12,266 bases of DNA, taken from contig JAJZSS010000012.1 in the NCBI GenBank assembly GCA_021849525.1, positions 1-12,266 of the forward strand, in the 5' to 3' direction. Each line of letters starts with the position of its first letter. The first letter of the stretch is position 1. The DNA comes from Chloroflexota bacterium (GTDB taxonomy: Bacteria > Chloroflexota > Anaerolineae > Anaerolineales > UBA4823). The notes below the pieces were generated by a model that made no database searches, had not been told where the DNA came from, and worked only from the letters and a program-made list of their open reading frames with translations. Shown piece by piece: positions 1 to 12,266 of this stretch. Made by a program: the position numbers and the translations under genes.

Positions 1-92
1 ATGAAATGTCCACGTCGATGTGCCTGCGCGTCCCCCTGAGGGCAGCCAACCGATTCCAGACCGGGTGCTGAGACACCAACGATCTGAATGCC
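1..92 (+). ncRNA. ffs: Possible 3' end of SRP RNA (partial)
   Basis: This is a non-coding stretch cut by the window edge and followed immediately by a strong terminator, as expected for the tail of a small stable RNA. Compared from memory with the 3' half of large bacterial SRP RNAs such as Bacillus scRNA, it shows matching landmarks in the right order: a GAAA-containing run near position 3, ATGTGCC at 18-24, a C-rich run, then CTGAGGGCAGCCAAC at 36-50. A small hairpin, GGTG/CACC, sits at 64-77. The diagnostic apical loop (GGAAG..AGCAGC) would lie upstream of the window, so the call is tentative. Alternatives are an unrelated 3' UTR or a metG attenuator leader. No T-box GGTGGNACC element is visible. 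Confidence 0.35.
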
Positions 93-120
93 AGGGCTGT
101 CCGGATGGACAGCCCTTTTC
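93..120 (+). terminator. Strong intrinsic terminator
   Basis: A perfect 10-bp stem, AGGGCTGTCC pairing with GGACAGCCCT, encloses a GGAT loop and runs into TTTTCTTT. It ends whatever is transcribed from upstream, probably the structured RNA at the window start. It lies 76 bp before the metG start codon, so an attenuator role for metG is possible, but no competing antiterminator was recognised. Confidence 0.85.
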
Positions 121-146
121 TTTGCATAAAAACCACACGCCACGGC

Positions 147-166
147 CTGCACCCACTCGAGTGCAG
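147..166 (+). other. Stem-loop in the metG leader
   Basis: CTGCAC at 147-152 pairs with GTGCAG at 161-166 around an 8-nt loop. An alternative short palindrome, ACTCGAGT, overlaps the loop. The hairpin lies about 20 nt before the Shine-Dalgarno sequence of metG. It has no T-tract, so it is not a terminator. It could influence translation or RNA stability, or be fortuitous. Confidence 0.35.
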
Positions 167-196
167 TCCAGAAATTTGATGGTTCCGGAGGTTCCC

Positions 197-1981
197 ATGA
201 CCGAGAATATTTTAGTCAGCGCAGCCTGGCCCTATGCCAATTCTTTGATCCATGTCGGCAATATCACCGGCTCTTATTTACCGGCGGATATCTTTGCACG
301 CTACCACCGCCTGGCTGGCAACCGGGTGCTCATGGTATCTGGCTCGGACTCACATGGCACTCCGGTTACGGTGCGTGCAGATGCAGAAAACAGCACTCCT
401 GTGGCTGTCTATGAACGCTTCCATACTGGTTTCCTGGAGCTTTTCCAAAAACTGGGGCTGGCCTATGATCTGTTCACCAGTACCCATACGGAAAATCACA
501 TCCGAACCTCCCAGGCGATTTTCCTGGCCCTCCAGGAAAATGGCTTTCTTTACACCGAAAGCCAGCAGCAGTGGTTTGCTCCAAACCAGAACCGGTTCTT
601 ACCCGACCGTTACGTTGAGGGCACATGTTACCTGTGTGGGTATACCAGCGCCCGCGGCGACCAGTGCGATAACTGTGGCGAGCTGCTGGATGCGACCCAG
701 CTCATCGATCCCCGCTCCAAAATCGACGGCTCCACCCCTGAGCTGCGCGAGACAAAGCATTTTTATCTTGACCTCGCCCGGCTCGAGCCCGGGATTGTCG
801 AATTTCTCCGCCAGCGGGAGAGCTATCTACGCCCCAACGTGTTGCGCCAATCCCTGGGACAGATCCAGGCCAACTCCCTGCATGGAAGGGCGATTACCCG
901 CGACCTGGACTGGGGTGTCCCGGTGCCGGTAGAGGGCTGGGAAGGAAAATGCCTGTATGTCTGGTTCGAGGCGGTCATCGGCTACCTGTCTGCCTCCATC
1001 GAATGGTCGCGTCTGGAAGGCTCCCCGGACGCCTGGCATGACTGGTGGACCGAACCCAGAACGCGCTCGTATTACTTTATCGGCAAAGACAACATCCCCT
1101 TCCATGCAGTCATCTGGCCCGGGCAGCTGATTGGCGCCGGCGAAGCATTTTCTCAGATTTTTGAAGAACGCCCGCATGCCCCTCTGACCCTACCTTACGA
1201 TGTGCCCGCCAATGAATTTATGAACCTGGAAGGTAAGAAAATATCTGGCAGCCGGAACTGGGCGGTGTGGGGGCTGGATTTCCTGGCGCGCTATGATCCC
1301 GATCCTTTGCGCTACTACCTCACCGTCAATATGCCCGAGAGCAAAGACACAGACTGGGATTGGCTGGGCTTTGTGCATCGCAATAACGATGAGCTGGTTG
1401 CCACCTGGGGGAACCTGGCAAATCGTGTCCTTGCGTTCGCCTATAAAAACTGGGATGGCGTCGTTCCCGAACCGGGCGAGCTGCGCTCGGGGGATGAATC
1501 GATCCTGGCTGCGGTGGACGCAGGCTTCCAGGAAGTGGGCGAGCATTTGAAGGCTGTGCGCTTGCGCGCTGCTCTTAACGAAGCGATCCGCCTGGCTTCC
1601 GAAGTCAATAAATACCTGGATACATCTGCGCCCTGGTTCGAGATCAAGACCGATAAGCCAGCTGCAGCCACCACGGTATATACCGCATTGCGCTGCATCG
1701 ATTCGCTCAAGACGATGATGGCTCCCTTCCTGCCCTTCTCGAGCGAAAAGCTGAATACCTACCTGGGATATCAGCAGCCGTTATTCGGTGAGCAATTTAC
1801 CGAAACCGTCGCAGATAACCTGGGTGCCCATCAGGTGCTGCGCTATCGCCCCGGCGCGGCTGCCGGGCGCTGGGAACCCAGCTGCCTGGAACCGGGCCAG
1901 GCGCTTGTCCAGCCGGCTCCCCTGTTTCGAAAGCTTGAAGAGAGTATCGTCGAAGAAGAACGCGCCCGCCTGGGCCAGTAG
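197..1981 (+). CDS. metG: Methionyl-tRNA synthetase
   Basis: This is a class I aminoacyl-tRNA synthetase that charges tRNA-Met with methionine in the cytoplasm. The start at 197 is chosen because GGAGG (187-191) lies 5 nt upstream and translation then begins directly with the catalytic fold (MTENILVSAAWPYAN). An in-frame ATG at 179 and longer extensions lack such a site. The 594-aa protein has a Rossmann catalytic domain with the HIGH-type motif as HVGN (residues 19-22), the family GSDSHGTP stretch, and a zinc knuckle with C144, C147, C157 and C160. The KMSKS-type loop reads KISGS (348-352). A helical anticodon-binding domain follows (NNELVATWGNLANRV region). It ends at about the catalytic plus anticodon core, without the C-terminal OB-fold tRNA-binding domain of longer MetRS proteins. 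It appears to be transcribed alone, with a terminator on each side. Confidence 0.95.
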   Translation: MTENILVSAAWPYANSLIHVGNITGSYLPADIFARYHRLAGNRVLMVSGSDSHGTPVTVRADAENSTPVAVYERFHTGFLELFQKLGLAYDLFTSTHTENHIRTSQAIFLALQENGFLYTESQQQWFAPNQNRFLPDRYVEGTCYLCGYTSARGDQCDNCGELLDATQLIDPRSKIDGSTPELRETKHFYLDLARLEPGIVEFLRQRESYLRPNVLRQSLGQIQANSLHGRAITRDLDWGVPVPVEGWEGKCLYVWFEAVIGYLSASIEWSRLEGSPDAWHDWWTEPRTRSYYFIGKDNIPFHAVIWPGQLIGAGEAFSQIFEERPHAPLTLPYDVPANEFMNLEGKKISGSRNWAVWGLDFLARYDPDPLRYYLTVNMPESKDTDWDWLGFVHRNNDELVATWGNLANRVLAFAYKNWDGVVPEPGELRSGDESILAAVDAGFQEVGEHLKAVRLRAALNEAIRLASEVNKYLDTSAPWFEIKTDKPAAATTVYTALRCIDSLKTMMAPFLPFSSEKLNTYLGYQQPLFGEQFTETVADNLGAHQVLRYRPGAAAGRWEPSCLEPGQALVQPAPLFRKLEESIVEEERARLGQ

Positions 1982-2007
1982 ACCTGCTCGCTGATCATGA
2001 AAACGAA

Positions 2008-2044
2008 ATCGCCCCGCCTGAAACTTAATTTCAAGCGGGGCGAT
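2008..2044. terminator. Bidirectional terminator between convergent genes
   Basis: A near-perfect inverted repeat: ATCGCCCCGC at 2008-2017 pairs with GCGGGGCGAT at 2035-2044. One C/A mismatch follows, then five more pairs (TGAAA/TTTCA) around a 5-nt loop. It begins 27 nt after the metG stop and ends 16 nt after the stop of the minus-strand gene at 2061. Reading the minus strand, the stem is followed by ATTTCGTTTT. Reading plus, it is followed by the weaker GGGTTT. It probably ends both converging units, more efficiently on the minus strand. Confidence 0.75.
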
Positions 2045-2060
2045 GGGTTTCTGGACAAGA

Positions 2061-2294
2061 TTAAGCCACCGGTGGAAAATCAGGTTTACCAGCCAGCCAC
2101 CACTGCTCATGCTCGGCCTGATAGAGCAGCTCGTAGACCTGCTGACCAGCCTGCACCAGAATATGCAAGCCCTGGCCGTCTTTCCAGCGCCGGCCGATGG
2201 CATGTAAGAAGAAAGTTTGTCCCCGCCAGCGGAATTCGACCGGGTTCAGTTTGCCTGTCGGGTCATAGCGGACCTGTACTTCGACCTCGTCCAC
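2061..2294 (-). CDS. Small uncharacterised protein, DUF6504-like
   Basis: A 77-aa soluble protein of unknown function. Its GTG start (plus-strand 2292-2294) directly abuts the TAG stop of the upstream CinA-type gene with no intervening base, so translational coupling is likely. No independent Shine-Dalgarno was identified. The sequence is rich in aromatics and beta-strand pattern, with a central FRWRGQTFFL segment, a GRRW turn and a YELLYQAEHEQWWL C-terminal strand. This layout (basic FxWRG core, RW turn, final Trp-containing strand) resembles small DUF6504-type proteins as I recall them, but I cannot confirm membership. No signal peptide, membrane helix or catalytic motif is visible. The gene is the last of a two-gene unit that runs into the terminator at 2008-2044. 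Confidence 0.7.
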   Translation of the reverse strand: MDEVEVQVRYDPTGKLNPVEFRWRGQTFFLHAIGRRWKDGQGLHILVQAGQQVYELLYQAEHEQWWLAGKPDFPPVA

Positions 2295-2777
2295 CTAAAG
2301 GCTCTCCAGATACTCTTGTAGCAAGCGCAGCACCTGGCGGGCTGATTTTTCTTTTACCGCCAGCCGGTTGCCCTCCCACACATACTGGTAGGCTTCTTCG
2401 CCGCCTTCGGTGCTCAGACCAATCCAGGTCAGGCCAACCGGCTTGTCAGGCGTTCCACCGCCGGGTCCGGCAATACCGCTGACGGAAATGCCGATGTCGG
2501 CTGCCAGCGCTTTGCGTACGCCGGAGGCCATCTCGATCACCGTCTCCTGGCTGACTGCGCCGTATTTCTCCAGGGTTCGCCAGCTCACACCCAGCAGGCG
2601 GACTTTGGCTTCATAGGCATAGGCGGTGACGCCGCCCATGTAATACGTGGACGACCCGGGAACATTGGTGATCAGGTGGCTCACCAACCCACCGGTGCAT
2701 GATTCGGCAACCGCCAGACGCAGGCCGCGCTTGCGTAATAAATTACCCACGATGTTTTCTAATGGCGGAGCGGACAT
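2295..2777 (-). CDS. pncC: Nicotinamide-nucleotide amidase (stand-alone CinA C-terminal domain)
   Basis: A 160-aa protein consisting only of the CinA C-terminal (PncC) domain. The family deamidates nicotinamide mononucleotide to nicotinic acid mononucleotide, returning NMN to the NAD pool in the cytoplasm. Family signatures are intact: AESCTGG at residues 24-30, the YYMGGVTAYAYEAKVRLLGV region (46-64), and the glycine-rich SGIAGPGGGTPDKPVGL (100-116). The N-terminal MoCF-like domain of full-length CinA is absent and nothing of it remains upstream, so this is the short form and not a broken gene. The ATG at 2777 lies 6 nt after a perfect TATAAT, suggesting a leaderless message. The next gene begins at the base after its stop codon. 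It may be annotated as cinA or pncC; the amidase role is inferred from the family. Confidence 0.92.
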   Translation of the reverse strand: MSAPPLENIVGNLLRKRGLRLAVAESCTGGLVSHLITNVPGSSTYYMGGVTAYAYEAKVRLLGVSWRTLEKYGAVSQETVIEMASGVRKALAADIGISVSGIAGPGGGTPDKPVGLTWIGLSTEGGEEAYQYVWEGNRLAVKEKSARQVLRLLQEYLESL

Positions 2778-2783
2778 TCCCTA

Positions 2784-2789
2784 ATTATA
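2784..2789 (-). promoter_or_regulatory. -10 box of a leaderless promoter for the CinA/PncC gene
   Basis: The minus strand reads TATAAT, six bases (TAGGGA), then the ATG at 2777. Normal spacing from a -10 box puts transcription start on or beside the A of the start codon, implying a leaderless mRNA. The adjoining AGGGA is too close to ATG to act as an ordinary Shine-Dalgarno. A weak -35 candidate, TTGGGA, lies 19 bp upstream of the -10. Confidence 0.55.
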
Positions 2790-2875
2790 CAGGGGATTGC
2801 CTGCGCATTCCCAATTAATAGCCCAAGGGATTGGTTTCTTAGATAGTCATCATTTAATCATGCCCCGGAGCGTGT

Positions 2876-2881
2876 TAAAAT
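2876..2881 (+). promoter_or_regulatory. -10 box of a probable leaderless promoter for uvrC
   Basis: TAAAAT lies 7 bp before the uvrC ATG at 2889, again placing transcription start at the start codon. The bases just before the ATG (TTCAGCCA) contain no Shine-Dalgarno, which fits leaderless initiation. No convincing -35 hexamer is visible. It is arranged back to back with the promoter of the CinA/PncC gene about 90 bp away. Confidence 0.45.
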
Positions 2882-2888
2882 TCAGCCA

Positions 2889-4751
2889 ATGAAAATACCG
2901 GATCATGTTGAGAGGATTTTGGATAGCTTGCCGATCAAGCCGGGCTGTTACATCATGAAAGATGGCAACGGCAAGGTGATTTATGTCGGCAAGGCGATTA
3001 ATCTGCGCAACCGCGTACGATCGTACTTCCACAGCGCGGCACATGAGCATCCCAAAACCTACCAGCTGGTTCGCAAAATCCAGGATATCGAATGGATCGT
3101 GGTCGGCTCTGAGCTGGAAGCCCTGATCCTGGAGATGAACCTGATCAAAAAGCACCGCCCGCACTATAACGTGCGCCTGAAAGATGACAAACGCTACCCA
3201 TATATCAAAATTCACTGGGCCGATCCCTTCCCGAAAGTGACGGTAACCCGCCAGATGGTGGAAGATGGCTCGCGTTATTATGGCCCGTACACCAGCGTCT
3301 GGGCGGTTCACCAGACCCTGGATGTGTTGCGGCGGATCTTTCCGTATCTCACGTGCGACCGGCAGATCACGGGCCAGGACGAACGCGCCTGCCTGTATTT
3401 CGATATCAAGCTCTGCACTGCGCCCTGTATTGGAGCGATCACGCAGGCCAATTACCGCCAGATGATCGATGACCTGGGCAAATTCCTGGATGGGCGGACG
3501 GAGCCGGTCGTCTCGCGCCTGCAATTGGAGATGGAAAAGGCAGCCGAGGAGCTGCATTTCGAAAAAGCCGCCGCACTGCGCGACCAGCTGCGAGCAATTG
3601 AGAATGTTGTGGAGCGCCAGAAAGTCGTCTCACCCGACTATATTGATTCGGATGTGCTGGCGATGGCGCGCACCGATGGCGAAGCCTGCGTGCAGGTGTT
3701 CTTTATTCGCGGCGGCAAGCTGATCGGGCGGGATTATTTTCTCATGGAGGGCGCTGCCGACCTGCCGGACGCCAATGTGCTGGGTGAATTTATCAAACAG
3801 TTTTACGATCAAGCGCCCACCGTTCCACCTCAGCTTCTGCTCCCCCAGGAAGTCGAAGAGCTGCAGATAATTCGCCAGTGGCTGAGCCAGAAGCGGGGCG
3901 GTCAAAAAGTGGAGATTATGGTGCCTCACGAAGGCCCGACCCAGGAGCTGATTGCCATGGCGGCGGAGAATGCTGCCGATACCCTGCGCGCCCTGCAGGC
4001 GCAGTGGGAGGCAGATAGCCATCGCCAGGAGCAATCACTGGCAGAGCTTCAGCAGGCATTGAGCCTGGCTGCGCCTCCGAACCGGATCGAATGTTACGAT
4101 ATCTCCAATATACAGGGCACCTCGGCGGTGGGGAGCATGGTGGTATTTGAGCAGGGTGTGCCTTCGAAAAAGAACTACCGGCGCTTCAATATCCGCAGTG
4201 TGAGCGGACCGGATGATTTTGCCTCCATGGAAGAAGTCTTGACGCGGCGCTTCATGCGCTGGCAGGCTGGAACGGAAAGCGAAGAGACTCCGGGCAAGAA
4301 GCTGGATGAAGCCTTCGCCCGGCTCCCTGATCTTCTGCTGGTCGATGGCGGCAAAGGACAGCTTGGCCGGGCAGTGGCCGTGCTGGAAAAATATGATCTG
4401 CTGGATAAGATCCCGGTGGCGGGTCTGGCAAAACAAAATGAAGAATTATTTATTCCGGGGCGCAGCCAGCCGATCGTGCTGCCGCGCCACTCTCAAGGAC
4501 TGTATCTGATCCAGCGCGTGCGCGATGAAGCCCACCGGGTGGCGATCACGGCGCACCGTAATAAACGGACGCGCCTGGGATTGACTTCCCGCCTGGATTC
4601 CGTCCCGGGAATTGGTCCTGCCCGGCGGAAAGCGCTGCTGGCGTCCTTTGGCAGTATCGAGAATATCCTGGCAGCCAGCGACCAGGAGCTGCTGGCAATT
4701 CCAGGAATAACCCCGGCTCTGGCGAATGCACTGCGCGCCCACCTGGAATAA
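2889..4751 (+). CDS. uvrC: Excinuclease ABC subunit C
   Basis: UvrC makes both incisions around a DNA lesion after UvrA and UvrB have loaded, in nucleotide excision repair. The 620-aa protein shows all expected domains. The N-terminal GIY-YIG nuclease, which makes the 3' cut, reads GCY at residues 19-21 and YVG at 32-34. A UVR motif that binds UvrB lies around 206-241 (EMEKAAEELHFEKAAALRDQ). The UvrC RNase H-like nuclease, which makes the 5' cut, carries D404 in YDISN, D486 in LLLVDGGKGQL and H549 in RDEAHR. Two helix-hairpin-helix motifs at about 570-619 (VPGIGPARRKALL, IPGITPALANAL) bind DNA. Length is typical. The start is fixed by the domain boundary and a -10 box 7 bp upstream; there is no ribosome binding site. 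A 40-codon gene follows 23 nt downstream and is probably co-transcribed. Confidence 0.96.
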   Translation: MKIPDHVERILDSLPIKPGCYIMKDGNGKVIYVGKAINLRNRVRSYFHSAAHEHPKTYQLVRKIQDIEWIVVGSELEALILEMNLIKKHRPHYNVRLKDDKRYPYIKIHWADPFPKVTVTRQMVEDGSRYYGPYTSVWAVHQTLDVLRRIFPYLTCDRQITGQDERACLYFDIKLCTAPCIGAITQANYRQMIDDLGKFLDGRTEPVVSRLQLEMEKAAEELHFEKAAALRDQLRAIENVVERQKVVSPDYIDSDVLAMARTDGEACVQVFFIRGGKLIGRDYFLMEGAADLPDANVLGEFIKQFYDQAPTVPPQLLLPQEVEELQIIRQWLSQKRGGQKVEIMVPHEGPTQELIAMAAENAADTLRALQAQWEADSHRQEQSLAELQQALSLAAPPNRIECYDISNIQGTSAVGSMVVFEQGVPSKKNYRRFNIRSVSGPDDFASMEEVLTRRFMRWQAGTESEETPGKKLDEAFARLPDLLLVDGGKGQLGRAVAVLEKYDLLDKIPVAGLAKQNEELFIPGRSQPIVLPRHSQGLYLIQRVRDEAHRVAITAHRNKRTRLGLTSRLDSVPGIGPARRKALLASFGSIENILAASDQELLAIPGITPALANALRAHLE

Positions 4752-4982: not shown

Positions 4983-7900
4983 TTATGCGGCTGGTTTTGA
5001 GCCTAAGAGATCCTGGACCGCCTGGTTAAACTCGCGCACAGAAAAAGGTTTCTGCAGCCAGTGAATGCTGCTGTGCTCCAGCTTGATCTGATCCTGTTCA
5101 TTCAGGGGGTGTCCGGTGATAAAAAGCATCTTTGTCTCAGGATGAAATTGGTGGGTCTGGGTGTACAGCTCGATACCACCCATCTCTGGCATCACAATAT
5201 CGCTGATCACCAGGCTGACCGGCTGCTTTGAATGCTGAAAGACGGTTAGGCCGTGGAGGCCATCGGGCGCCGTGAGCACATTGAACTGTTTGGCTTCCAG
5301 CAGTGCTTGCAATGCTTCACGGGTAGCCGGGTCGTCTTCCACAACCAGGACAGTCTCTCCAGCGCCCACCAGATCAGCAGCTGGTAAACCGGGCGTCAGG
5401 CTGGCAGTAGTTTTTTCCAATGCCGGCAGATAGATCCGCAGAGTAGTGCCGGCCCCCACCTTACTCTGGACATCGATATATCCATCGTGATGGCGGATGA
5501 TCCCATATACTTGAGCCAGACCCAACCCGGTGCCCTTGCCAACCGGCTTGGTGGTGAAGAATGGCTCGAAAATGTGCTGGCGGATTTCCGGTGGAATGCC
5601 ATGCCCGCTATCTTTCACAGCAATAGTGATCCACTTACCTTCTGGCATATCTGGCAGCGGCGCCGGATGGCGTTTGTCAAAATTCACCTGCCCCAGCTCA
5701 AATTGCAGCACCCCACCCTGTGGCATGGCATCGCGAGCGTTCAAGGCCAGATTCATGAATACCTGCTGCATCCGGGTCGGATCGACATTGACCATATACG
5801 ATCCCGGCAGGTAATTGAGCTCCAGGCGAATATTCTCAGGCAGCACGCGCCCCAGCATCTGGTCCAGCTCTTTAATGAATGGCAATAAATCAATATCTGT
5901 CTGTTCCATCACCGAGCGGCGGCTGAAATCCAGGATCTGGCGGATCAAGCTGGCGGCGCGCTGGATCTGGCGCTCGATGATATCCAGTTTCTCGCGGCTG
6001 GCAGCAGCCAGGTTCGGATCGGTACGCAGCAAATCGGCATACACCAGGATGGCTGCCATGATGTTGTTGAAATCATGGGCAATCCCGGCCGCCAGCTGGC
6101 CGACAGTTGCCAGCCGCTCCTGGCTCTGGATGCGCTCCTGGCTTTCACGCTCACGGGTGACTTCACGTAAAGTCAACACCCATTGGCGGATCTCTCCCTG
6201 TACCGGCCGGATCTGGGCTTCAAATACCCGGCGCGGCAGCCCATCCAGCTCGATCACCAGGGGCAGGGAATTATCCTGCCGTTCGATCAGCTCACTCACC
6301 GGCAGACGACCTGACTGCGTCAGGTTTGCGTTCGCAGTTTGGTCGGAGAGCACTGCCAGGATTTCCTGGCCCAGGGGGTTGGCGACCAGGATATTCAGGT
6401 TTTCATCCAGCAAGACGGTGCCAATCGGAATATTCTGAACCAGATGTTCCAGATGTTTCTGCTGGGCTGTGAGAATTGCTTCCAGGCGCTGCACTGCGGT
6501 ACGCGCCTGGTTGGCGAAGGTATTCAACAGGCGATATTGCTCGGTATCGAAAGGAGCTGCCTGCTCGCTACCCAGGATCAACATCCCTGCCAGGCGCTTG
6601 CCGGTGAAGATCGGGGCGGTGATCAGGGTGGTTAATTGCTCCACTTCCGAGCTTTCAAGGTCATCGTACTCGGACAGTTTGACCACCTGTAGATTCAGCT
6701 CGGGAGGTGGGCTGGTATCCTGGTCATTTTCCTGTAATACATCCCAGATGATTTTGCTAATCTGGCTCATCGCCTGAGTGGATACCGGGCGTGTGATTGT
6801 GACGGTCAGCGGGGCGATACTGCTTCCAGAGAGATAGCCGGCGACAACATCGTTGTGGAAGGCATTTTGCAAACGGCGCAGCAGTAGTTTCAGCAGCTCG
6901 TCGTAGGATAAGCTGAAGCCAATTTCCTGGCTTAATTCATATAACTCGGCCAGCTCCGTGGTTCGTTGGTGGACAGTCTCCTCTAATTCATCTGCATGGG
7001 CGCGGATTTGCTCATAGAGGCGCGTATTTTCCAGCGCCACTGACATCTGTCCAGCCAGCACTTCCAGGAGATCGAGATCATGCGAGGTGAGCTGTTCCGG
7101 CTGCTGGCTGGCGACACAGATGGCGCCGGTGACCGAAGCCTGGCGGAATACCGGCACACATGCCCAGGTGGTGGGTTTGGACAGGTTGTCCGGTTGGGCT
7201 ACTGTCTGGATGATAGTCTGACGGTCGGCGAGCACCTTCTGCAATAGGGCGTCTGGCGCGGGAGGATTGGATTGAGCAGCCGATCGCGATGACTGAGCCG
7301 CCAGAACCCCCCGGCCATTTTCCACCAGGTAGATCCTCACCAGCTCATAACCTGCCTGCACCACAAGCTGTTTGGCAGTCTCGCTCAGCATCTGGCGCGG
7401 TTCAAGGCGCTGGTTGAGGGCCTGAGTTAAATTCTGGATCAGGGTGAGCTCAGCCAGGCGGTCCTGGACTTCCTGGTATTGGTGGGCATTGCTGAGCGCC
7501 AGACCGACTTCCTGGCAGATCGCCATCATTAATTCCAGATGATCCTCAGAGAAAGCGCCAGGACGGTGGTGGGAAACCGACAAAATGCCCAGCAGTTCAT
7601 CTCCTGCCAGGATAGGAGCCGTAATAACGGCGTGAACATTCTCATCAACATCGGGTACATGCATCCAGCGCGGGTCATCGCGTACTTCGGCCAGGAAAAC
7701 CGGTTGGCGCATCTTGGCTACCCACCCGGTCAACCCTTCGCCGGGCTTCATCGGATAGAGGACATTTAACTCGTCCGGTCTTACGGCCGGGCGTCCATAG
7801 AGCGCCCGTAAACTCAGCCGGTCCTGGGCGGGTAGATAGAGAAAAGCCTGTCCGACGATGCCGCCCAAAACCTGGCAGGTCAGGGCGACGGCGCGTTCGA

Positions 7901-10451
7901 GGACTTCGTCCGGATCCAGGCTGGAGATCACATCGCGACTGATCTGATAGAGCAGGGAGAGATGGCGGCGCTCGGTAGCGGCTTGCTGGAATAAGCGTGC
8001 GTTCTCGATGGCGATTGCCGCCTGATCACCCAGCAGGCGGATCATGCGTACTTCCGTATCGCTAAACTGGCGAGGCTGCTTAAAAGCGATGTTCATCACG
8101 CCAACCACCCGGCTGCCAAATTTAAGCGGGACTCCAATGATAGCGCCAGTCCAATTTTCCGGGGTATTTTCGTACAGCGGGTGGCTCGCCATACTCGGAA
8201 TGAGGATGATCTCGCCTGTGCGGGCGACGGTTGCCGTCAGGCCGTTATCGCGCGGCGCGTTGAAGGGTTGGTGGATGGCGCCATCTGCCCAAAGCGCAGC
8301 GGCAAAAGTTAGCTTTCCCTGACCCTGAGATTCGAACAGAAAAATATGGCTGTTATTTGAGTCGGGCAGCAAGCCGATCGTATGTTTAAGGATAGAATCC
8401 AATACCGCGTGCAAATCCAGGCTGGATGTTACACTCAGACTGGCCCGTCGGATCGCTTCCAGCTCCACGGCTCGCTGACCCTGTTCTTCATACAGGCGAG
8501 CATTTTCGATGGCGGTGGCAGCATGGATGGCGAAAGCCTCGGTCAATGAGACTTCATCGGCTGTGTACAGCCCAGGGTGAATCCGGTCCAGGCTCAGCAA
8601 ACCGATCACCCGACCGCGTACTTTGAGCGGCGCGCCCAACCAGGAACGCACATGCCCGCTGATGGCATTCCGTGTCCAGGTGGGGTCTTCCTTCGTATCC
8701 GGGACGACAATCGATTTTCCATGTTCAATGATTTCGATGAAATGGGGAACCGCCCGGGTCGTAAAATTGATTTGGGGGACCAGGCCTGGATCGGTGAAAT
8801 TTTCATACCCGCGCCAGGCATGCATGTAAACTTTCTCACCTTCGACGAGCATGATATTCCCGGTGTCATAGCTTAATATCTGAGCCAGCTGCTCCAGGAT
8901 CGTAAAAAGTACTTCGTGAAGGGAGAGGCTCGAGCCGATCGCTTGCGAGGCATCCCGCAGGGATTCGGCGCGCAGACGCGCCTGGTGCTCGGCTTTAAAC
9001 AGCCGGGCGTTTTCGATGGCGATACTTGCCTGGGCGGCAAAAGACATGGCCAGCTGGGCTTCGTGCAGGGTATAGGCAGCAGGTTTCTGGCTGTCACAGG
9101 TGAGATAACCGATGACCTCGCCCCTCAAGATCATGGGGATTCCCATCCACCCCCTCACGTAGGTGGTGCCCGCCCACCGGTGAAATCGTGGATCAGCCAT
9201 GGCATCCTCTAAAATGACTGGCCCTTGAGCTTCTAAGATTTCCAAAAACAGTGGATCGCGCCCGTCGAAGCGCTGCCCGAGAAATGCATCCCGGTCAACT
9301 TTTCCGCGCAAGGCCATGCCCAGTAAATCACCCTGGTCATATAAAAATACCGCTGCGCTGTCGAGTGGGATAACTTGCTCGAGGTTGATCAGGATTTGCT
9401 CTAATACCTGATCCAATTCGAGGGATGAAGTCAGGGCGGTGGTCGCCTGGCGCACCATTTCTATTTCGTGGGCCCGGGCATTGACCGTTTCCTGCATCTC
9501 CTTAATATCCGTAATGTCATTAAAGATGATCTGCAGCAGGCGTCGGTTATTGGTCTCGAAATGGGTGATCGAGGCGTGGATAAACTGCTGTTTGCCATCC
9601 GGACGGACAAGGGGGAGGTTGAAGGCTATTTCTTGCCCGGTCGCTGCCAGATCAATTAAGTCCCTGCTCTTTTGATTAAACGCCGCAGGATGCAAGTCCG
9701 GTAGGAATTTGCCAACCAGCTCTTCACGGCTGACGCCGATCATTTCGACCATCCGCGGATTCACCGAGAGGACGCATATTGTCGCTGGATCGACAGTCAT
9801 GATCCCATGTACCGAGCTTTCATACAGGCTGCGATAGAGCGTCTCGGCATCTTGCAGGCCAGCGAACAGGCGGGCGTTATCTAATGCCGTTGAGATCTGA
9901 CTGGCAAAAGCTTCGATGGTGGGCTGGTCAATGGGCGTCAGGGCATCGCCGAAGATATGAAAGACACCGCTCAGTTTTTGCTGCAGGTACAGGGGGGTAA
10001 AGAAAGCCGGTTTTCCGCCATATTTATCCAATAGTGGTGCATGGGAGCTGGAAGGCAGGTTCTGGAAAAAACGCGCCACGATGGCTGTGGAATCGGGAGA
10101 AAATATGGTTGCGCCGCGTTGGGTCACCGGGCCTAATTCTGGCAGGGCTGATAAGGCAATTCTATATCCAAGGAAGGATTGTCCTGCCAGCTCGATGACA
10201 GACCGGATACCCGCAGGCGACTGGGTTGTCGCCACTACCTGGATCGTCTCTCCATCTTCTTCTAACAGGCTCAGAGTGCCGTGAAATCCTGCCAGACGCA
10301 CCTGTTGATTAAAGGCATTAAATACGTCTTGCTCGGAGCGCGCCGAGCGTTGGATCGAAGCTGCCGCAGCGTTTAATGCCTGCAGCAGGTTGATATTCAA
10401 TCTATCTCCGTCCCTCGCTGAATGGACAGGGGGATGGCTCAGTTTTGCCAT
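4983..10451 (-). CDS. Giant soluble multi-GAF hybrid sensor histidine kinase
   Basis: An 1822-aa hybrid histidine kinase without signal peptide or membrane helices, so probably cytoplasmic. Approximate order: GAF1 20-192 (divergent), PAS1 203-325, GAF2 345-480, GAF3 505-650, GAF4 670-816, GAF5 835-986, GAF6 1005-1141, a coiled-coil signalling helix (~1142-1180), GAF7 1165-1317, PAS2 1330-1435, HisKA, HATPase and receiver. Several GAFs end in the repeated (A)IENARL(F/Y) helix. The phosphorylatable H1459 lies in GIAHDFNN, typical of hybrid kinases. The ATPase N-box includes N1571, with later DSGHGIPP and GKGTGLGL motifs. The receiver has acidic E1705/D1706/D1707, phospho-acceptor D1751 and K1801. 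All catalytic residues are intact. The start at 10451 has AAGGTG 4 nt upstream. There is no partner regulator, Hpt protein or DNA-binding output in the window. The ligands are unknown. It is transcribed divergently from the radical SAM/AOR module, so a sensory link is possible but unproven. Confidence 0.93.
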
Positions 10452-10713: not shown

Positions 10714-11967
10714 ATGGATTTACAATCGAATCTCTGGGCAGAGGTGGACGACCAGGGCAGGCTGATCCTGCCAAAAGAAATCTCCGAATCCTATGGCGTG
10801 AAACCGGGGAACCGGGTGCGGATCGAGCCGAACGCCAATCACATCCGTTTGCATCGTTCGACATCCAACCTGCAAAAAGTGTATATCGAGCCAACCGATC
10901 TGTGTAACCTCAACTGCACGATTTGCATTCGCAATGGATGGGATGAAACCCTGGGCCGGATGTCTCAGGAGACTTTTGAGCATATTCTCAATGGATTAAA
11001 AAAACTGCCTTCCATGCCGACTGTCTTTTTCGGTGGGTTGGGGGAGCCCCTCTTTCATCCGCGCACCATGGATTGGATCGAGCAACTCAAGGCATGCGGT
11101 GCGCCGGTTGAGCTGATCACCAATGGAACCACGCTCACCGAAAAAAATTCACGCCGCCTGATTAAAGCCGGATTGGATGTGCTGTGGGTTTCCCTGGACG
11201 GCGCGACCGCGGAGAGTTATGCGGATGTGCGCCTGGGCGCAGAATTACCCAAAGTTCTGGCTAACCTGAATGTATTTCGCCAGCTGCGGCGCGGGGGTCA
11301 CAAGCCCACTCCTGAGATCGGGATCGCCTTTGTTGCCATGCGCAAGAATATCGGTGACCTGCCCGAGCTGTTAAAAATCGGTCGCCAGCTTGGCGCCAGC
11401 CGTTTCTCGGTGAGCAATGTAATGCCCTACACCCCAGATATGCAGGATCAGATGCTCTACCGGCGAACCTTGAGCGATATCGCCTATATGACCTCTCCCT
11501 GGTTGCCCAGGCTCAGCCTCCCCAAATTTGACTTCGATGACCATACGAAAGATGCCTTCTACAGCGCCCTGAACAGCGGCTACAACGTCAATTTTGCCGG
11601 CAACAGCCTGAGCGGCGCGAACGATGTGTGTAATTTTGTCGAGGGCGGCACCATGTCGATCAGCTGGGATGGCAGTGTCAGCCCTTGTTGGCCGTTGATG
11701 CACAACCATATCAGCTACTTGCATGGCAAGGAGCACCGTTCCTTCAAGCATGTAATCGGCAATGTCAATGAGCAAGAATTGGAAGCCCTGTGGTTGGAAC
11801 CAGGGTATGTGGCGTATCGCGAAAAGGTGCAGAGTTTTGGTTTTGCTCCCTGTACATTTTGCGGCGGCTGCGATCTCTCCGAGGCGAATGTCGAAGACTG
11901 CCTGGGAAATGAGTTTCCGGCTTGCGGAAGCTGCTTATGGTCTCAGGGTGTAATCCAGTGCCCATGA
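10714..11967 (+). CDS. AbrB-like/radical SAM/SPASM protein, probable maturase of a tungsten oxidoreductase
   Basis: A 417-aa three-part protein. Residues 8-47 resemble an AbrB/MazE-type swapped-hairpin domain (AEVDDQGRLILPKEI, then GVKPGNRVRIEP). The radical SAM core carries the CxxxCxxC cluster ligands C64, C68 and C71 in LCNLNCTIC, and a GGLGEP motif at 107-112. The C-terminal SPASM-type region has C306, C325, C380, C383, C386, C396, C404, C407 and C416, enough for auxiliary Fe-S clusters. Start 10714 is preceded by AGGTGG; the frame is open further upstream but lacks a supported start. This architecture beside an AOR-family gene matches the family described as tungsten-cofactor oxidoreductase radical SAM maturase (TIGR04317, by recall). 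Such proteins are thought to modify or assemble the partner oxidoreductase, although the reaction is unknown. The AOR gene begins 170 bp downstream on the same strand. Function is inferred from domains and neighbour. Confidence 0.88.
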   Translation: MDLQSNLWAEVDDQGRLILPKEISESYGVKPGNRVRIEPNANHIRLHRSTSNLQKVYIEPTDLCNLNCTICIRNGWDETLGRMSQETFEHILNGLKKLPSMPTVFFGGLGEPLFHPRTMDWIEQLKACGAPVELITNGTTLTEKNSRRLIKAGLDVLWVSLDGATAESYADVRLGAELPKVLANLNVFRQLRRGGHKPTPEIGIAFVAMRKNIGDLPELLKIGRQLGASRFSVSNVMPYTPDMQDQMLYRRTLSDIAYMTSPWLPRLSLPKFDFDDHTKDAFYSALNSGYNVNFAGNSLSGANDVCNFVEGGTMSISWDGSVSPCWPLMHNHISYLHGKEHRSFKHVIGNVNEQELEALWLEPGYVAYREKVQSFGFAPCTFCGGCDLSEANVEDCLGNEFPACGSCLWSQGVIQCP

Positions 11968-12002
11968 AAGAAAATCGTTGGTAGAATCTAATTAAACGCG
12001 GT

Positions 12003-12031
12003 GTAAACAAGGCCCATGGATGGTTTACCAT
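12003..12031 (+). other. Overlapping inverted repeats upstream of the AOR gene
   Basis: GTAAAC (12003-12008) pairs with GTTTAC (12023-12028) over 14 nt. An alternative, ATGG TTTA CCAT (12020-12031), uses part of the same bases, and the loop contains the palindrome CCATGG. Because the two pairings exclude each other, this could be a switching leader or a protein-binding site. No T-tract follows, so it is not an obvious terminator for the radical SAM gene. Confidence 0.35.
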
Positions 12032-12036
12032 AACGT

Positions 12037-12100
12037 AGGCGGAGGTGCAGATTTCAATATCCTCGAGAAAAATCCAAATATCTGCTTCTGGTTCCTGCCT
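12037..12100 (+). other. Potential structured leader of the AOR gene
   Basis: AGGCGG (12037-12042) can pair with CTGCCT (12095-12100, one G-T pair), enclosing a second perfect stem GCAGAT (12047-12052) / ATCTGC (12080-12085) around a 27-nt loop. The structure ends 26 nt before the AOR Shine-Dalgarno. A molybdenum/tungsten-cofactor riboswitch is conceivable because such elements precede genes of cofactor users, but I cannot match the Moco consensus by eye. Confidence 0.35.
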
Positions 12101-12137
12101 CAAACATAATACCAGGAAGTAAAAAAGGAGAAAAATC

Positions 12138-12266
12138 ATGCTCGGAGGTTATGCCAATCGGATGGCCCATGTGGACCTGTCCACTGGGAAGGTTGAATAC
12201 AAGGCCATTCCTGAGGAATGGGCTCGAAAATATATCGGGGCGCGCGGCCTGGGCGTCAAGTATGTT
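12138..12266 (+). CDS. Aldehyde ferredoxin oxidoreductase family protein, N-terminus (partial)
   Basis: The first 43 codons of a gene cut by the window edge. The ATG at 12138 follows GGAG (12127-12130) with 7-nt spacing. The peptide carries the family N-terminal pattern: GGYANRMAHVDLSTG (residues 3-17), IPEEW (25-29) and YIGARGLGVKYV (32-43). These residues begin the AOR domain that folds around the bis-pterin tungsten cofactor. AOR enzymes oxidise aldehydes or related substrates, usually with ferredoxin as electron acceptor, in anaerobes. The substrate and the Fe-S ligands lie outside the window. The preceding AbrB/radical SAM gene is the typical partner of one AOR subgroup, so this is probably its client, and the two may share a transcript across the 170-bp gap. 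Confidence 0.88.
   Translation, partial: MLGGYANRMAHVDLSTGKVEYKAIPEEWARKYIGARGLGVKYV

Follow-up and report, generated by a model that had tools for sequence, protein, structure and literature searches.

A radical SAM/SPASM protein with an AbrB-like N-terminus encoded next to a tungsten AOR gene in the Anaerolineae, a candidate accessory maturase

The way in which AOR-type enzymes acquire tungsten is poorly known, and radical SAM proteins that might assist in it have been little studied; we know of no reaction assigned to any of the radical SAM genes found beside AORs. In P. furiosus the cmo gene presumably adjoins aor. A comparable arrangement has been described for T. kodakarensis, where the accessible text of PMC11323500 gives the gene order TK1064 (radical SAM), TK1065 (MoaD type) and TK1066 (AOR), and where its authors propose that the radical SAM protein might act in the maturation of the tungsten cofactor. 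The accessible portion of PMC13328260 distinguishes 92 WOR clades and describes a ThiS-like WorX, setting aside the SAM-annotated WorS-like neighbors as most likely involved in pterin biosynthesis. MoaD-family genes with AOR are reported for archaea in the portion of PMC2948915 at hand, and such a radical SAM enzyme goes unmentioned in the corresponding portions of PMC12096430 and PMC10221389. A search of titles and abstracts in the open-licence literature, which leaves subscription journals mostly outside, returned nothing relevant on a fusion of AbrB and radical SAM domains.

The window, by which we mean the whole stretch of 12,266 nucleotides analyzed here, is the full contig G000:C526 of a genome that is 68% complete and distributed over 536 contigs. 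Toward its end, on the forward strand, a gene with an ATG start (10714..11967) encodes a protein of 417 amino acids, a length shared by 89 of the 120 listed relatives; the closest named relatives, among the matches listed, come from the Anaerolineae/Chloroflexota. The protein combines an AbrB-like domain of the swapped-hairpin type (10735..10857, residues about 8-48), a radical SAM core (10885..11286, residues 58-191) and a SPASM region with a C-terminal cysteine cluster (11629..11964). An intergenic gap of 170 nt (11968..12137) separates this gene from the start of an AOR (WOR) family gene on the same strand (12138..12266), confirming the original prediction that the radical SAM gene lies directly upstream of an AOR. 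An AGGAG sequence at 12126-12130 precedes the AOR start; the forward strand of the gap is free of terminator-like sites, and a search of the gap for inverted repeats of at least 8 (arms at most 60 apart) found none. The first 43 residues of the AOR match AFOR_N in Pfam at 34.5 bits (cut-off 29.8), and the gene stops at position 12266 because the assembly contig stops there. Its probable remainder is G000:C261:1-1596 (L151), which begins near residue 75 of the reference, is the only other piece of a cognate AOR found in this genome and is 74% identical to the AOR of locus L048; the two pieces are likely a single gene. Behind the AOR piece, C261 carries DUF1952 and MoaD-like genes in convergent orientation and, after these, MoaA.

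Both an intact radical SAM core and a cysteine-rich SPASM region had been read from the DNA alone, and both are recovered by Pfam above cut-off, with 52.7 bits for Radical_SAM (58-191) and 44.2 bits for SPASM (306-387). Twelve cysteines are invariant in all 101 aligned rows: the CxxxCxxC motif of the SAM cluster (C64, C68, C71) and C306, C325, C380, C383, C386, C396, C404, C407 and C416, the last being followed by a nearly invariant P417. A match to PF13186 at E<=0.01 is likewise found in 101 of 101 rows, and the full-length AF2 model has a pLDDT of 92.6 and a pTM of 0.91. A reading as an RRE-containing RiPP maturase gained no support from the domain search, which gave a PqqD-type Pfam match at E<=0.01 in 0 of 101 rows.

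The N-terminal domain is less conspicuous to standard models. The window protein scores 14.9 bits against MazE_antitoxin, under the Pfam gathering score of 24.7; of nine relatives scanned, six of them chosen for a MazE/AbrB domain already listed in databases, four are above the cut-off (P0066, P0073, P0102, P0115) and P0018 lies at it. Two fused N-termini in related genomes (G489:C250 and G301:C683) also exceed the MazE/AbrB model cut-off, and 33 of the 101 aligned rows have a MazE/AbrB match at E<=0.01, nine of the 101 belonging to the domain-less group C introduced below. A profile built from 31 N-termini and compared with the PDB sequences found 2glw as its top match (a "hypothetical protein", E 3.1e-6), then AbrB (1z0r, 2k1n and 1yfb, E 0.007-0.008) and SpoVT (2ro5, E 0.02). 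Ufd1 came level with AbrB (E 0.008-0.017; 1zc1 at 0.008 vs B. subtilis AbrB at 0.007), both being far weaker than 2glw. For residues 1-53, AF2 gave a model (pLDDT 78.9, pTM 0.50) with the order strand-strand-helix-strand-strand. In a Foldseek search with this model, ranks 1-9 were taken by SpoVT, AbrB and AbrB-like histone-like proteins, with probabilities of 0.82-1.00 and E-values from 0.027 to 0.48; no match reaches 0.001, as the small size of the domain keeps even the best at 0.027. On the strength of the sequence profile and this predicted single chain, we accept an AbrB-type swapped-hairpin fold for the N-terminus, in agreement with what had been proposed for residues 8-47.

To place the protein within its family, relatives were grouped by score, domain and tree. 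The window protein matches TIGR04317 (W_rSAM_matur) over the full length of the model (positions 2-349 of 349, residues 52-417), but with 290.3 bits it stays below the curated cut-off of 380. The same holds for all scored members of its group A (261-318 bits), in which the domain is present, and its subfamily forms a group separate from the TIGR04317 members in the tree. Membership in TIGR04317 is thus borne out by the full-length match and the AOR neighbor but not by the score, so that the window protein is, judged by sequence, a sister subfamily of TIGR04317. All four scored members of group B (L118, L117, L111, L152) pass the cut-off with 412-468 bits; their N-terminus, of about 46 residues ahead of the model start, is shorter and similar, and its profile gave exclusively AbrB-type, though weak, matches in the PDB (E 0.14-0.77). 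This type of N-terminus also occurs in P0184 and P0219, whose names point to Syntrophaceae and Deltaproteobacteria. That four of four TIGR04317 proteins above the cut-off carry the domain indicates that the fusion is a trait of the family; the TIGR04317 model starts just past the AbrB-like domain and thus omits it. The pairing of AOR and radical SAM genes is known in kind; the N-terminal fold occurs widely, though the curated model does not cover it.

The domain is present in most relatives examined. It is missing from the nine members of group C, which form a starred clade in the tree, and from L093 and L094 elsewhere in it. In this tree of 123 rows, calculated by a quick method and rooted at the midpoint only, group C is flanked by domain-bearing groups on either side, a pattern compatible with an early fusion that was later lost in group C, the root not being established. 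It should be noted that the domain labels in the tree follow a length and score rule and that domain presence was judged by eye; and that group limits were set by bit score or by identity, so that L080/G203 is counted as A1 in one of the co-occurrence and locus counts and as A2 in the other.

To describe the gene neighborhoods, 100 radical SAM places were fetched, leaving out the window's own and ten weaker group B places, and 38 (18 + 20) of the many places in a second listing. Neighboring AORs were counted over all open frames; this count supersedes the AOR labels of the tree, which derive from a greedy gene caller that missed some AORs beneath longer shadow frames (for example at L043 and L075, labeled as lacking one). 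Clustering of the neighbors gave many antisense shadow frames, which were ignored. Of the 53 decidable loci of subgroup A1, 25 have an AOR within 2.5 kb, with the window included and one weak 60-residue match (L051) among the 25; 28 are without, and 22 more are truncated. In the linked loci the AOR is convergent in 18 cases, downstream on the same strand, as in the window, in 6, and upstream in 1. Group B has an AOR at 21 loci, mostly directly upstream, none at 7, and 4 undecided, after correction for the A-type fragments L106 and L110, which first fell into this group; in group C, none of the 6 decidable loci has an AOR neighbor. The link to AOR thus stands, and homologs rarely adjoining AOR is not what we observe, although the notion that an AOR is always next door had to be rejected on the same 25 of 53.

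AOR-linked loci also tend to carry further genes. A MoaD-like gene occurs within 2.5 kb at 21 of the 25 AOR-linked A1 loci vs 4 of the 28 without AOR, and DUF1952 at 15 of 25 vs 1 of 28; seven matches of each kind are seeds of the respective profile, and without these seeds the linked counts are 14 of 18 and 8 of 18. The MoaD match of L179 is doubtful (26 bits in a frame of 301 amino acids), and the loci are not independent, L164 and L165 for example being near-identical; of the duplicates L004 and L039, the latter alone was retained.

The clustering of neighbors also led to a second gene context, found at eight of the 75 A1 loci, where DGC-domain genes lie within 4 kb (L153, L039, L005, L053, L054, L055, L074, L076), most of them also with GcvH-like, OsmC and small thioredoxin genes; the Pfam names of this cassette were checked for L076 and one protein of L054. 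The A-type fragment L110 is likewise within 4 kb of a DGC-domain gene. As a partner, AOR is thus supported by real linkage, but it is not the only neighbor, and the range of clients may extend beyond AOR. Both the 28 of 53 decidable loci without an AOR within 2.5 kb and the eight loci beside another cassette speak against a maturase reading.

The codistribution of the two proteins was assessed in 298 genomes drawn from the class, many of them incomplete, with the best 4-6 first-look candidates scored per genome. A cognate AOR is encoded in 35 of 40 genomes with an A1 protein vs 47 of 258 without (odds ratio 31, P = 9e-18), with two fragments (G120, G128) counted in the AOR set and the radical SAM fragments of G290, G207 and G025 left out. 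Stratification by family retained the association, with a Mantel-Haenszel odds ratio of 7.7 (P = 5e-4) in seven families, 8.9 (P = 8e-5) in ten, with f46, f48 and f52 added, and 6.0 (P = 0.007) in the ten less f2; the genome lists were compiled by hand, and genomes in neither 2x2 listing are absent from both stratified tests. Five A1 genomes lack a cognate-AOR match: G203, in which an AOR fragment adjoins the radical SAM gene (L080), G180, in which the radical SAM gene is itself a fragment, and G085, G098 and G234, which carry the second, DGC-type cassette. The deeper subgroup A2 has a cognate AOR in 0 of 5 genomes.

The reverse relationship does not hold: 37 of the 82 genomes with a cognate AOR lack a radical SAM protein of group A or C at E<=1e-40 (G048, outside the AOR set, is on the group C list although its copy has the N-terminus). 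None of 20 AOR loci from these 37 genomes has a radical SAM relative within 4 kb, so the enzyme is not needed for every such AOR. A MoaD-like gene is present at 11 of these 20 loci and at 16 of 20 AOR loci from genomes with an A or C protein elsewhere. The expected genome-wide co-occurrence was therefore found strongly from A1 to AOR but not from AOR to the enzyme, and the pairing appears to be one-directional: the enzyme goes with the AOR, whereas the AOR can do without the enzyme. An accessory step on the cofactor or in its delivery fits this better than a compulsory side-chain modification.

The AOR sequences themselves bear on the same choice. Mean identity is 0.71 among 39 AORs with the radical SAM protein at the locus or in the genome, 0.71 among 20 without, and 0.70 across the two sets, and no alignment column separates the 39 from the 20, the largest frequency difference being 0.49; at least one gene was entered twice in this comparison (L044 = L250), and L257-L260 were left out. 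As no AOR residue marks the presence of the enzyme, a cofactor is favored over a fixed AOR side chain as its target. The closest solved structure to the AOR of L048 is WOR83 of Haloferax volcanii (725 bits), followed by 9mqx (467) and P. furiosus AOR (444). A TIGR04317 match above the cut-off was not found in Haloferax volcanii, which is weak evidence against a maturase role because the window's subfamily also scores under that cut-off. That the enzyme modifies an AOR side chain, as anSMEs do in sulfatases, with the AbrB-like domain holding the client, would agree with the AOR linkage at A1 loci and with the peptide- or protein-modifying SPASM enzymes SuiB, anSME and ChlB among the 50 listed Foldseek matches of the full model. 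We nevertheless consider it unlikely, given the absence of a separating AOR column and given that the small-molecule enzymes BtrN, BlsE and MoaA are also among the best sequence and fold matches; to our knowledge, solved AORs show no such side-chain modification. Also improbable in our view is that AOR is not the client at all, and that a general thiol- or metal-related enzyme was recruited both to AOR and to the GcvH-like/DGC/OsmC/thioredoxin cassettes. The distribution of DGC genes, at 5 of 28 intact loci without AOR, 3 of 22 truncated and 0 of 25 AOR-linked ones, would suit such an enzyme, with the restriction that the DGC query proteins came from clustering of the same loci and the test is not independent, as would the cassette in three of the five A1 genomes without cognate AOR. 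Against it are the co-occurrence with AOR, overall and within families, the repeated co-localization with MoaD and DUF1952, and locus L076, which has both the cassette and, 6.7 kb away with an FmdE-domain gene between, an AOR, so that both contexts may be one pathway.

For the N-terminus, the fold invites a role in DNA binding, and the original prediction considered that the fused domain might bind DNA and sense the state of its own cluster. R8, R15, R23 and R24, which we take to be the DNA-contact arginines of B. subtilis AbrB, align with residues 9, 16, 24 and 25 of the window protein, which are A, R, S and E. Among 84 fused group A domains these places are basic in 0%, 80%, 2% and 18%, respectively; in six stand-alone AbrB domains of related genomes, scored by eye, the R23 place is basic in 6 of 6 and the R24 place in 4 of 6, this control being noisy (29 loci gave 13 segments and six real-looking ones: L192, L193, L194, L198, L200, L206). 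With two of the four contact arginines essentially absent and one uncommon, DNA binding in the AbrB manner is not supported for group A by these alignments, and neither is the suggested cluster sensing; R15 alone is kept. We regard it as very unlikely that the domain turns the protein into a regulator of the AOR operon that controls itself or senses its cluster; the predicted AbrB fold and the retained R15 equivalent would speak for this, whereas the low basic fractions at the other three places speak against it. A search upstream of the radical SAM gene for inverted repeats of at least 8 also found none, which is weak evidence because AbrB is not known to need a strict palindrome. The 28 group B domains, which include L089, L103 and L104, have an arginine pair two residues on, positions 26 and 27 being basic in 82% and 54%, and the DNA-binding question is therefore more open for group B. 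Net charge is -0.5 in group A, -0.5 in the noisy stand-alone set and -2.3 in group B, and fails to separate group A from stand-alone AbrB.

We thus favor, with a probability of about 0.5, an accessory maturase for the tungsten AOR that acts at the level of the cofactor and uses the AbrB-like domain for pairing or docking. The radical SAM/SPASM enzyme would serve AORs of a type whose closest solved relative is WOR83, and its target would be the tungsten-pyranopterin cofactor or the delivery of this cofactor rather than a fixed AOR side chain. The AbrB fold forms an interleaved dimer in AbrB; here the N-terminus probably pairs two enzyme molecules and/or docks the AOR or the MoaD-like sulfur carrier, and would not bind DNA in the AbrB manner. 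PqqD-like RRE domains serve other SPASM enzymes, and we tentatively raise the possibility, itself rather doubtful, that the AbrB-like domain is a former DNA grip converted to a protein-recognition and pairing module, which replaces them and reads either the apo-AOR or the ubiquitin-like MoaD carrier. Ufd1 handles ubiquitin, and the match to its barrel, comparable to that to AbrB, is a mere hint of MoaD/ubiquitin-like recognition.

A domain kept across subfamilies, with its DNA contacts shed in that of the window, offers a handle on dimerization, partner binding and AOR activation, and AORs with and without the enzyme, being about 70% identical, provide a natural comparison of cofactor chemistry.

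Compared with known systems, the locus shares with T. kodakarensis the three gene types found together in TK1064, TK1065 and TK1066, a comparison made by gene types as given in the accessible text of PMC11323500. The cassette DUF1952 gene matches the C-terminal half of the "MoaD related protein" of PDB entry 1v8c (E 2.9e-6), which we take to be from Thermus; 1v8c is one chain, whereas here two neighboring genes are found. With the AbrB/SpoVT/MazE superfamily the predicted domain has the fold and the key pattern D..GR.(I/V/L)P in common, but it is fused to an enzyme, has largely lost the DNA-contact arginines and, in the window protein itself, falls below the Pfam gathering score. With TIGR04317 the protein shares the core over its full length, the AOR neighborhood and the C-terminal CP, and the four scored group B proteins of that family likewise carry an AbrB-like N-terminus. 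The two differ in their partners, full-length AORs of A1 loci mostly scoring 750-1400 bits to the L048 AOR and those beside TIGR04317 proteins about 220-250 bits, and in arrangement, the AOR being convergent or downstream in 24 of 25 A1 loci and mostly directly upstream in group B.

Group C (loci L090–L102) comprises relatives of the radical SAM protein in which the AbrB-like N-terminus is absent, and none of its six decidable loci carries an AOR gene within 2.5 kb of the radical SAM gene. Despite this lack of an adjacent AOR, 13 genomes were assigned to group C and 10 of them have the cognate AOR (the type paired with subfamily A1, that of the window protein); the 13 take in one genome (G048) whose copy has the N-terminus.

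At L119 (G162:C103), a single open frame of 647 residues (positions 1293–3233) matches both a piece of AOR and the radical SAM protein: This is either a translational fusion of the two or a frameshifted AOR read into the radical SAM gene. At L104 (G149:C244), the radical SAM protein is found within an 885-residue open frame, with 521 residues ahead of the cysteine motif. An HTH gene sits between the radical SAM and AOR genes at L075 and L077; the L075 copy matches PF00126, and the label "ModE-like," as well as the L077 copy altogether, are by-eye calls.

An alternative gene cassette was observed beside the same radical SAM subfamily at eight loci (L153, L039, L005, L053, L054, L055, L074, and L076). 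It encodes DGC, accompanied at most of these loci by GcvH-like, OsmC, and Thioredoxin_3 proteins, with additional ArsR-type and ArsP_1 permease genes at L076.

In the window, a very long protein (1822 aa; 4983–10451, minus strand), a putative sensor kinase with multiple GAF/PAS domains and a receiver, is encoded divergently to the radical SAM gene. Three further neighbors are of common housekeeping types: a putative methionyl-tRNA synthetase (20–1981, plus strand), a putative CinA-like protein (2295–2777, minus strand), and a putative UvrC (2889–4751, plus strand), all of these window genes being judged by eye.

The AOR cassette includes a DUF1952 gene, for example at L151 (1758–2054, minus strand), the locus that holds the probable remainder of the window AOR gene, and at L060 (9691–9945). 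The encoded proteins frequently end in LRAGG or LRAGA, a ubiquitin-like tail, and most of the adjoining MoaD-like proteins end in GGG. The cassette DUF1952 proteins, which match the C-terminal half of 1v8c, may represent a second carrier.
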